Below, one piece after another: positions 35,975 to 56,716 of a DNA stretch of 64,000 nucleotides. Source of the stretch: a bacterium. GTDB lineage: Bacteria; Zhuqueibacterota; Zhuqueibacteria; Zhuqueibacterales; Geothermadaptataceae. A program made the position numbers and the translations under genes. The first letter of the stretch is position 1, and each line of letters begins with the position of its first letter. The notes beneath the pieces are model-generated. The model had not been told where the DNA came from. It did no database searches and saw only the letters and a list, made by a program, of their open reading frames with translations. The stretch spans positions 1 through 64,000 of the forward strand of contig JAJRYV010000030.1 of assembly GCA_024275575.1 (NCBI GenBank), read 5' to 3'.

Positions 35975-36010
35975 AATTGCCCCGGGTAAATATGTAAATG
36001 GAGCTAACCG

Positions 36011-36058
36011 ATGGCTGAGGAAGTTGCAAAAAATCTGATTTTAAAAGTTGAGTCATAA
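36011..36058 (+). other. Orphan start segment of fliN/fliY, closed by in-frame TAA
   Basis: ATG 36011 has a good ribosome site (GGAG at 36000-36003, seven bases away) and encodes M-A-E-E-V-A-K-N-L-I-L-K-V-E-S before TAA 36056-36058. The same frame continues after the stop, through I-S-Q-E-F-S-T, into the fliN/fliY gene. This looks like the true start, cut by a nonsense codon, or less likely a leader peptide. Confidence 0.65.
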
Positions 36059-36079
36059 ATATCGCAAGAATTTAGCACG

Positions 36080-36910
36080 ATGATGGCGAATGACGCCATG
36101 ATCACCTTAACTTTTACGCCGAAAGACGTGGATCTGCTGCAGGCAGATGACCTCGGCGCCCTTTTCGGGGATGCGCCTTGCCAGCTCATTAGTTCAAAAA
36201 TTACCTGGCAGGATGAGCTGGAGCAAAAATTTATCATCACCGAGGAGAATGCAAATGCGCTGATCGCAAAAATCAATGAATTCAACGACGCCATCGATTC
36301 GGTTGAAATTCTGCTGGAAAACTGGAACCTTGCCGGGCAAAACAATCTCGGTGCAAACCTTGAATCAGCGCCGCTCTTTTCAGCGCCGGAACTCGAAATG
36401 CGCAGCCTCACAGGATCGGACTCACCGGCTGAAACGCTGCATGTACAATATGAAATGGAAATCGACGGTTCAGTTTTTCATTTCAGCAAAATCGTCGGCA
36501 CAGGCTGGCAGACAATTCTCGAAGCTGCGCACCTCGATGTGACAACTGTCGATGATGTCGAAGCAAAACCAGCAGTCACAGTTGATGATGCCGATTTTAG
36601 TGACCTGGGCAGCGGATCAGCACAGAGCAATGACTCTAGCGAAAGCACTGACATTTCAATGCTTTACGATTTGAAACTCGACGTCGTCGTCGAGCTTGGC
36701 CGGACGCAAAAACTGGTGCAGGATATTCTGCAACTTGGCCGCGGCGCCATCGTCGAGCTCGATAAACTCGCCGGCGATCCGGTGGAAATCTATGTCAATG
36801 GTAAACGGCTGGCGCTCGGCGAAGTCGTGGTCGTCGATGATCATTTTGGTGTGCGCATCACGCAGCTGGTTCGGCGCTCCGAACGTGTACATAGCCTGGG
36901 AGATAGCTGA
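36080..36910 (+). CDS. fliN: Flagellar motor switch protein FliN/FliY, N-terminus interrupted
   Basis: At least 276 residues. The C-terminal SpoA domain (about 195-272) is clear: L-D-V-V-V-E-L-G-R-T-Q-K-L-V, L-G-R-G-A-I-V-E-L-D-K-L-A-G-D-P-V-type pattern, and V-V-D-D-H-F-G-V-R-I-T. The N-terminal half resembles a CheC-like domain as in FliY. I do not see the E-x-x-N phosphatase motif. ATG 36080 has no ribosome site, whereas ATG 36011 upstream in the same frame does; TAA at 36056-36058 separates them. The gene may be damaged, reinitiated, or mis-sequenced. It follows fliM and precedes fliO. Confidence 0.85.
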   Translation: MMANDAMITLTFTPKDVDLLQADDLGALFGDAPCQLISSKITWQDELEQKFIITEENANALIAKINEFNDAIDSVEILLENWNLAGQNNLGANLESAPLFSAPELEMRSLTGSDSPAETLHVQYEMEIDGSVFHFSKIVGTGWQTILEAAHLDVTTVDDVEAKPAVTVDDADFSDLGSGSAQSNDSSESTDISMLYDLKLDVVVELGRTQKLVQDILQLGRGAIVELDKLAGDPVEIYVNGKRLALGEVVVVDDHFGVRITQLVRRSERVHSLGDS

Positions 36911-55039: not shown

Positions 55040-55626
55040 AAAGATTACGATTTGCCGGTTTTTTTTTCACCCTGATATTTTTTGTCTGCAATGCAAATGA
55101 ACTGCTGCTTGCTCAAACATTTGCGACAGCCGAATCATTTTATGCCGATACCCGGGCACACCGGGTTGGTGATATCATTACCATCCACATCGTCGAATAT
55201 TCACAAGGCAGCAATGAAGCCGATTCGCGCACGCAGAAGGATAGTTGGATTGGGCTGAATACGAAAGGCTCGGGGCCGTTGGGATTTATTCCCATCGGCG
55301 GATTTGGGCTGCAGAATAAAGTTGATTTTACTGGCCGGGGCGAATCAAACCGCAAGGGCAGTCTGCGTGGTAAGATGACAGCAAGAATTACCTCGGTTGA
55401 TGATAACGGCAATTTCGCTATCAGGGGGAACCGGGAAATCATCGTCAACAACGAAAAACAGATGATGGTTTTGGATGGCACCATTCGTCCCGAAGACATC
55501 TCAAAACAAAATATAATCATGAGTTATCAAATTGCAGATGCTAAAATCAGTTACAACGGTTCGGGCCCGACGGTGCGGAGCCAGAAACCGGGTTGGATTA
55601 CGCGCATATTTAACTGGCTTTTCTGA
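55036..55626 (+). CDS. flgH: Flagellar L-ring protein FlgH
   Basis: A 196-residue outer-membrane ring protein. The family core is present: V-G-D-I-I-T-I-H-I-V-E, G-E-S-N-R-K-G-S-L-R-G-K-M-T-A, and I-R-G-N-R-E-I-I-V-N-N-E-K-Q-type ending. FlgH is usually a lipoprotein; here the only early Cys (residue 18, in F-F-V-C) is not in a standard lipobox, so lipid modification is uncertain. It overlaps flgA, and flgI follows. Confidence 0.92.
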   Translation: MKRLRFAGFFFTLIFFVCNANELLLAQTFATAESFYADTRAHRVGDIITIHIVEYSQGSNEADSRTQKDSWIGLNTKGSGPLGFIPIGGFGLQNKVDFTGRGESNRKGSLRGKMTARITSVDDNGNFAIRGNREIIVNNEKQMMVLDGTIRPEDISKQNIIMSYQIADAKISYNGSGPTVRSQKPGWITRIFNWLF

Positions 55627-56716
55627 CCTGTTTTTTCTATGTTTGGTTAGTTTTTTGCTTTTTTCAACCCTGCATGCGGCAGTTCGAACGAAAGATATTG
55701 CCAGTGTTCAGGGGTTGCAAGCAAAAAAACTCGTTGGATATGGGCTGGTCATCGGCCTTGACGGCTCCGGGGATACCCGCCGTTCGATGGTATCATTGCA
55801 GACCGCAACGAATATGCTGCGTCGTTTCGGCATCAGCCTGCCGAAGGAACCGCTGCAATTGCGCAACATCGCGGCGGTGATGATCACGGCGGACCTTCCG
55901 GCATTCATGCCTGCCGGCAGTGCCATCGATGTGCAGGTTTAATCGATGGGCGACGCTAAAAGCCTTGAAGGCGGCACACTTGTGCTTTCGCCTCTTGTCG
56001 ATGATCGTGGTAAACTCTTTGCCCAGGCTCAGGGCCCGGTATCAGTCGGAGGTTACAATATCGAAAGCATTGGCGGAGATCGCATTCGTAAAAATTTTAC
56101 CCTTGTTGGCCGTATTCCAAATGGAGCAGCCCTTGTGCGGGATAGTGAGATCACGAGTCTTCCCGATTCCGTTCTTTTTCTCACATTGAAATCGCCGGAC
56201 TTTACGACCGCCGTCAAACTGGCGATAGCGATCAATACGACTTTGAACAGTAAGCAGGCGAGTGCGCTCAATGCGGTACAAATTCGTGTCGATATTCCTG
56301 CCCAGTATCAGGCCAAAGTTGCTGAATTTATAAGCCTTATTGAAAATACCGAAGTCGAACCGGACGTGCCTGCCCGCGTTGTTGTTAACGAGCGTACCGG
56401 AACGGTCATTGTCGGAGAAAATGTGACGATTTCGCCGGTGGCAATCGCCCATGGAAATTTGCGCATCGAAGTGAAAAATTTCCCCATCGTTTCGCAGCCA
56501 GCACCGTTTTCACAGGGGCAAACGACGGTTGTACCCAATACACAAACGACGGTAACCGATACCTCCGGCCGCATGCTGGCGTTTGACGCTTCGGCAAACA
56601 TCAAAGACGTCGCCCGCGTGCTCAATGCGCTGGGTGTGACGCCGCGTGATCTCGTGGCGATCTTCCAGGCATTAAAGAGGGCTGGTGCGCTGAAAGCTGA
56701 ACTGGTCATCATGTGA
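55532..56716 (+). pseudogene. flgI: flgI, P-ring protein gene with in-frame TAA
   Basis: The frame encodes a complete FlgI apart from one stop. The N-terminal part has V-R-T-K-D-I-A-S-V-Q-G-L-Q-A, Y-G-L-V-I-G-L-D-G-S-G-D-T and I-A-A-V-M-I-T-A-D-L-P. The conserved Ser of I-D-V-x-V-S-S-M-G is replaced by TAA at 55940-55942; S-M-G-D-A-K-S-L-E-G-G follows at once. No ribosome-binding start is convincing: the frame opens at TTG 55532 inside flgH, and TTG 55643 gives a short signal peptide. Either the gene is damaged, reinitiated, or has a sequencing substitution. Confidence 0.75.
55946..56716 (+). CDS. flgI: FlgI C-terminal part, downstream of the in-frame stop
   Basis: A 256-residue frame beginning at ATG 55946, three bases after the TAA. 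It contains the main FlgI body: G-G-D-R-I-R-K-N-F-T-L-V-G-R-I-P-N-G-A, L-K-S-P-D-F-T-T-A, and A-R-V-V-V-N-E-R-T-G-T-V-I-V-G. It lacks a signal peptide, so alone it would not reach the periplasm. Reinitiation at this ATG is conceivable, but there is no clear ribosome site. Confidence 0.7.
   Translation: MGDAKSLEGGTLVLSPLVDDRGKLFAQAQGPVSVGGYNIESIGGDRIRKNFTLVGRIPNGAALVRDSEITSLPDSVLFLTLKSPDFTTAVKLAIAINTTLNSKQASALNAVQIRVDIPAQYQAKVAEFISLIENTEVEPDVPARVVVNERTGTVIVGENVTISPVAIAHGNLRIEVKNFPIVSQPAPFSQGQTTVVPNTQTTVTDTSGRMLAFDASANIKDVARVLNALGVTPRDLVAIFQALKRAGALKAELVIM

Follow-up and report, generated by a model that had tools for sequence, protein, structure and literature searches.

An in-frame TAA after codon 15 of fliN is most likely a consensus error in a draft bacterial genome

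The fliN gene analysed here carries an in-frame TAA shortly after its start codon. In our interpretation, one base of the deposited sequence is altered here, most likely through a base-calling or assembly error in the consensus and not as a biological feature, with a probability of about 55%. The gene would be an otherwise ordinary fliN with its native start at ATG 36011, in which the draft consensus gives one base incorrectly, and the cell itself would carry a sense codon at positions 36056–36058. The TAA belongs to a group of in-frame stops spread across the draft genome. Because stray stops occur genome-wide, even in a normally essential gene, an error or a very recent mutation is favoured over a flagellar feature.

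The window, that is, the whole stretch of DNA analysed, is the first 64 kb of a contig of 105,302 bases (C1) in a draft genome of 4.96 Mb (144 contigs, 97.7% complete). A flagellar and chemotaxis cluster lies in the window, with gene names taken partly from reading of the frames, and fliN directly follows fliM (Table 1). According to a study of KSB1, two of its four clades have flagellar and chemotaxis genes (PMC9012183). The fliN TAA is in frame with both ATG 36011 and the open reading frame 36080–36910. FliMN_C (Pfam PF01052) matches residues 195–264 of the 276 encoded by this frame with an E-value of 1.9e-23, compared with 1.1e-28 for a PDB FliN chain against the same profile. By this FliMN_C (SpoA-type) C-terminal domain, the product is predicted to be a FliN/FliY switch protein.

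No Pfam model matches the ~190 residues before residue 195 (window positions 36080–36660). FliY, unlike FliN, has a CheC-like phosphatase domain ahead of FliMN_C. In the predicted fold of the FliN read-through, which is of low confidence (mean pLDDT 31.7), positions 36080–36660 form helices and strands, which may represent a degenerate CheC-like domain of the FliY kind. Residues 2–27 are drawn as one helix in the same fold, in agreement with the continuous helix across the stop proposed by an earlier sequence-only reading, but at a confidence that lends the proposal little weight. At the TAA site, no repeat and no unusual RNA fold (z = −1.27) is found.

Table 1. Positions of fliN and flgI features in the window, and in-frame stops found across the genome.
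Feature	Position	Strand	Description
Shine-Dalgarno-like GGAG	36000–36003	+	4-base match to the AGGAGG core, 7 bases before ATG 36011
fliN codons 1–15, MAEEVAKNLILKVES	36011–36055	+	Aligns with the start of G001 FliN, ATG in the same place
In-frame TAA	36056–36058	+	Glu, Ala, Asp or Ala in this column of relatives
Seven codons between TAA and ATG 36080, conserved as coding sequence	36059–36079	+	8 of 10 residues after the stop match G001
Remaining fliN, 276 aa, FliMN_C at the C-terminus	36080–36910	+	No ribosome site at ATG 36080
Second in-frame TAA of the window, flgI (aligned frame 55532–56713)	55940–55942	+	Inside one FlgI domain match
Seven genes with a stop: fliN, flgI, C1:77471, C112:135281, C18:14598, C134:24326, C71:60156			All TAA
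glmS, HD-domain response regulator, M14 peptidase			TAA inside one domain match in each
UvrD helicase, laminin-G-like domain			TAG and TGA, respectively, inside one domain match
Peptidase_S66			TAA between the family's two domains

FliN was searched for in 60 genomes including this one, and 22 are positive. Since only the C-terminal part of FliN matched outside the family, starts are compared in four relatives, G001 (same genus, 78% identity) and G003, G004 and G005 (same family). A FliN match is absent in G002 (same genus, 67% complete) and G006 (same family, 83% complete). A stop in the FliN of G034 is its natural end and was rejected as an internal stop. In all four relatives, FliN begins at the ATG equivalent to 36011, 23–27 codons before the equivalent of ATG 36080, and no stop is encountered up to the FliN domain. 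The TAA column is occupied by E in G001, A in G003, D in G004, and A in G005. The equivalents of ATG 36080 in G001, G003, and G005 are internal methionine codons without a ribosome site. With translation in all four relatives starting at the counterpart of ATG 36011 and continuing past the TAA column, ATG 36080 is not the native start.

These comparisons bear out part of the sequence-only reading. It had claimed that ATG 36011 has a ribosome site and shares the fliN frame until a TAA 15 codons on, and that ATG 36080 lacks such a site. In accordance, the ribosome-site match covers four bases at ATG 36011 but only two at ATG 36080 and ATG 36083. Its claim that the stop interrupts the true N-terminus agrees with the start and the sense residues of the relatives. 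It had also held that relatives starting naturally at the position of ATG 36080 would speak against it; none of the four does so, and the claim stands.

Similar stops are found elsewhere in the genome. When 1,186,046 sampled bases are compared with 1,346,513 bases of G001, an internal in-frame stop is judged genuine in 7 of 205 genes (205,749 aligned bases), versus 0 of 206 G001 genes in the reverse direction (Fisher p = 0.007; p = 0.015 for 6 versus 0 without the edge case). Two of the seven are flagellar genes. The residues of G001 at the seven sites are E, S, Q, Q, E, E, and A. C71:60156 is visible only as a 76-residue piece at the edge of a stretch, and C1:77471 is the weakest of the seven, with 2 of 10 residues matching after the stop. 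The latter site (L036:13471) is the third in-frame TAA on the contig and lies near the start of a TPR-containing protein. Seven further frames, namely C12|74549 (two stops), C12|130090 (two), C8|291570 (three), C12|38598, C12|28940, C8|156570 (two), and C14|298488, were dropped for being antisense, for a stop a few codons from an end, or for a poorly aligned N-terminus. Every stop in the reverse direction was rejected on inspection by eye, as lying in an antisense or wrong frame, an N-terminal extension, or a C-terminal tail; the most convincing of them, C134|31852, is antisense to a frame of 217 codons that both genomes conserve. Among control MAGs, genes with an internal stop number 0 of 17 in G004, 0 of 17 in G005, and 1 of 39 in G003 (at codon 6).

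A coding-potential scan of 1.186 Mb gives 50 candidates (24 TAA, 17 TGA, and 9 TAG), compared with 19 in G001. The Pfam check covers 14 of the 50; on inspection by eye, the other 36 looked like gene boundaries or antisense frames and were left out. Three of the 14 (fliN, flgI, and C18:14598) are already among the seven genes, and six sites are new and family-supported, five of them with the stop inside one domain match. The 14 also include a KaiC-type candidate (TAA) near the C-terminus. A PorV-like gene (TAG), pyruvate dehydrogenase E1 (TAG), an NACHT-type gene (TAA), and one TAA without a family match are kept out of the tally. The 13 supported sites comprise 11 TAA, 1 TAG, and 1 TGA, a tally that may be biased by selection made partly by eye and by Pfam checking of 14 of the 50 scan candidates. 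No stop is present in any of the ABC-domain matches listed (39 matches here) or among the response-regulator domain matches listed.

The stop in glmS affects a normally essential gene. A single full-length glmS exceeds the TIGR01135 cut-off in this genome (C112:10820–12655, 815.5 bits), and it contains one TAA, which lies outside the window (G000:C112:11387–11389; L165:11387). The G001 gene scores 814.4 bits and has no stop, and the other TIGR01135 matches in this genome are partial and below the cut-off. The cell wall depends on glucosamine-6-phosphate made by GlmS, and walled bacteria without amino-sugar uptake need the gene to live. The gene is well conserved and therefore not long dead, so that the living cell lacks the stop, bypasses it, or has acquired it very recently. 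With a stop in its sole full-length glmS, the in-frame stops of this genome are not to be taken at face value.

A consensus error is the likeliest explanation, and next to it stands a real, very recent nonsense mutation, which we regard as possible but considerably less probable. The functional start of FliN would be lost and, with flgI also affected, the population would probably be non-motile. Loss of motility is a common change, the fliN stop is clean with its context conserved on both sides, and flgI in the same locus is broken too, its single FlgI domain match (residues 52–393) spanning a TAA where G001 has Ser. Restart at an ATG after the flgI TAA would leave the product without a secretion signal, and it could presumably not make the P-ring protein. 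Two flagellin N-terminal domains, at G000:C130:3449 and C130:9971, are uninterrupted, and the filament genes thus appear intact. Against a recent mutation, the same type of lesion is present in the sole full-length glmS and in genes unrelated to motility. In addition, one frameshift-like case stands beside seven nonsense cases, whereas decaying genes usually accumulate indels too. The flagellar-cluster genes are also as constrained as in G001: at columns invariant in outgroups (3139 columns of 20 genes, flgI not covered), 86 unique amino-acid changes are found here versus 97 in G001, with no excess of lineage-specific changes that would point to relaxed selection. For fliN alone, the numbers are 3 and 1 in 129 columns. 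This test is too coarse to pick up an error rate of the size given below. The flagellar genes are still constrained, and any genuine loss must have happened very recently. The sequence-only reading had stressed two nonsense codons in one flagellar locus; the flgI stop is indeed there, but the flagellar emphasis is unsupported, with five of the seven stops elsewhere and a further one in glmS. As judged from sequence comparison, a flagellum-specific story does not hold, since similar stops occur across the genome.

Three other explanations would leave the TAA in place. Translation could end at TAA 36056 and restart at ATG 36080, ~22 bases on, to give a FliN that lacks 23 residues but keeps FliMN_C. 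The closeness and common frame of ATG 36080 and ATG 36083 and the intact C-terminal domain suit such a harmless stop; it is nevertheless unlikely, given that ATG 36080 has no ribosome site, that the N-terminal segment is kept in all four relatives, and that the flgI and glmS stops would be left unexplained. If, instead, ATG 36080 were the native start and the upstream frame open by chance, the gene would begin with its sole uninterrupted frame, but the conservation of the upstream codons and start in four of four relatives refutes this. A leaky ochre codon, with UAA partly read as an amino acid to give full-length protein from fliN, flgI, and glmS, is very improbable. It would fit the TAA at 7 of 7 comparison sites (0.462^7 = 0.0045 under a uniform spectrum) and at 11 of 13 supported sites. 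However, TAG and TGA sites exist too, and TAA-only recoding, suggested by the first seven sites, was discarded when the wider scan gave them. Of 41 tRNA matches in the genome, ARAGORN reads 37, none with anticodon UUA; a 38th is Gln(UUG) by pattern, and three of 82–84 bases are unread. A UUA-loop pattern matches 34 times, versus 65 for the reversed control, and its only match within a found tRNA is Lys(UUU) according to ARAGORN. Two PCRF-domain genes are present, as expected for RF1 and RF2, with no stop inside the match. TAA remains a normal terminator, with no sign of avoidance among 195 compared genes (91 of 195 here versus 102 of 195 in G001), and a backup stop follows within 10 codons of 38 of 91 TAA ends here and 39 of 102 in G001, with no clear excess. 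It is hard to credit that UAA is the commonest terminator and yet usefully read through at scattered sites (glmS, fliN, and flgI) without a dedicated suppressor tRNA, and programmed recoding is poorly supported.

Returning to a consensus error, the stops are mostly substitutions, as far as the alignments tell, with one frameshift-like pair in the same comparison (near C112:96,000, L169; matches to a 444-codon G001 gene). Against an error, the contig is 105 kb long and the genome is 97.7% complete, and, with seven nonsense sites over 205.7 kb, the implied error rate of ~9 substitutions per 10,000 bases if random (nonsense fraction 0.038) is a high one for long contigs. The spectrum is a further constraint. 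TAA is expected to make up 46% of nonsense changes under a uniform spectrum, 26% under G:C to A:T transitions alone, and 59% under G:C to T:A changes alone, and 11 of 13 has probabilities of 0.005, 1.7e-5, and 0.049, respectively. Plain random error does not explain this over-representation of TAA relative to a uniform spectrum. The set of stops looks unlike ordinary transition-driven mutation and would fit a G:C to T:A process best. Oxidised guanine gives such changes in repair-defective cells; a mutator was considered and rejected, as mutY and fpg matches are present without a stop. Formed in DNA shearing or library preparation, oxidised guanine can also yield G:C to T:A sequencing errors (PMC8748355). 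Against such a process, the cluster's missense changes found in this genome alone are not enriched in G:C to T:A (0 of 28 one-base codon changes versus 5 of 41 in G001).

Flagellar loss should accordingly not be read into this genome. If the TAA codons proved real, glmS, fliN, and flgI together would be an exceptionally clear set in which to look for UAA read-through. A literature search on premature stops in MAGs found no paper.

This copy resembles known FliN/FliY switch proteins (PF01052) in its C-terminal domain and its position directly after fliM, and differs in the ~190 residues without a Pfam name before the domain and in the in-frame TAA after codon 15. As in recent flagellar pseudogenes, one nonsense codon interrupts a gene that is otherwise conserved, but the stops here are not confined to dispensable genes. 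When consensus errors create spurious stops in draft metagenome assemblies, these are likewise scattered substitutions that break conserved genes, including normally essential ones; the set described here differs from them in being predominantly TAA.
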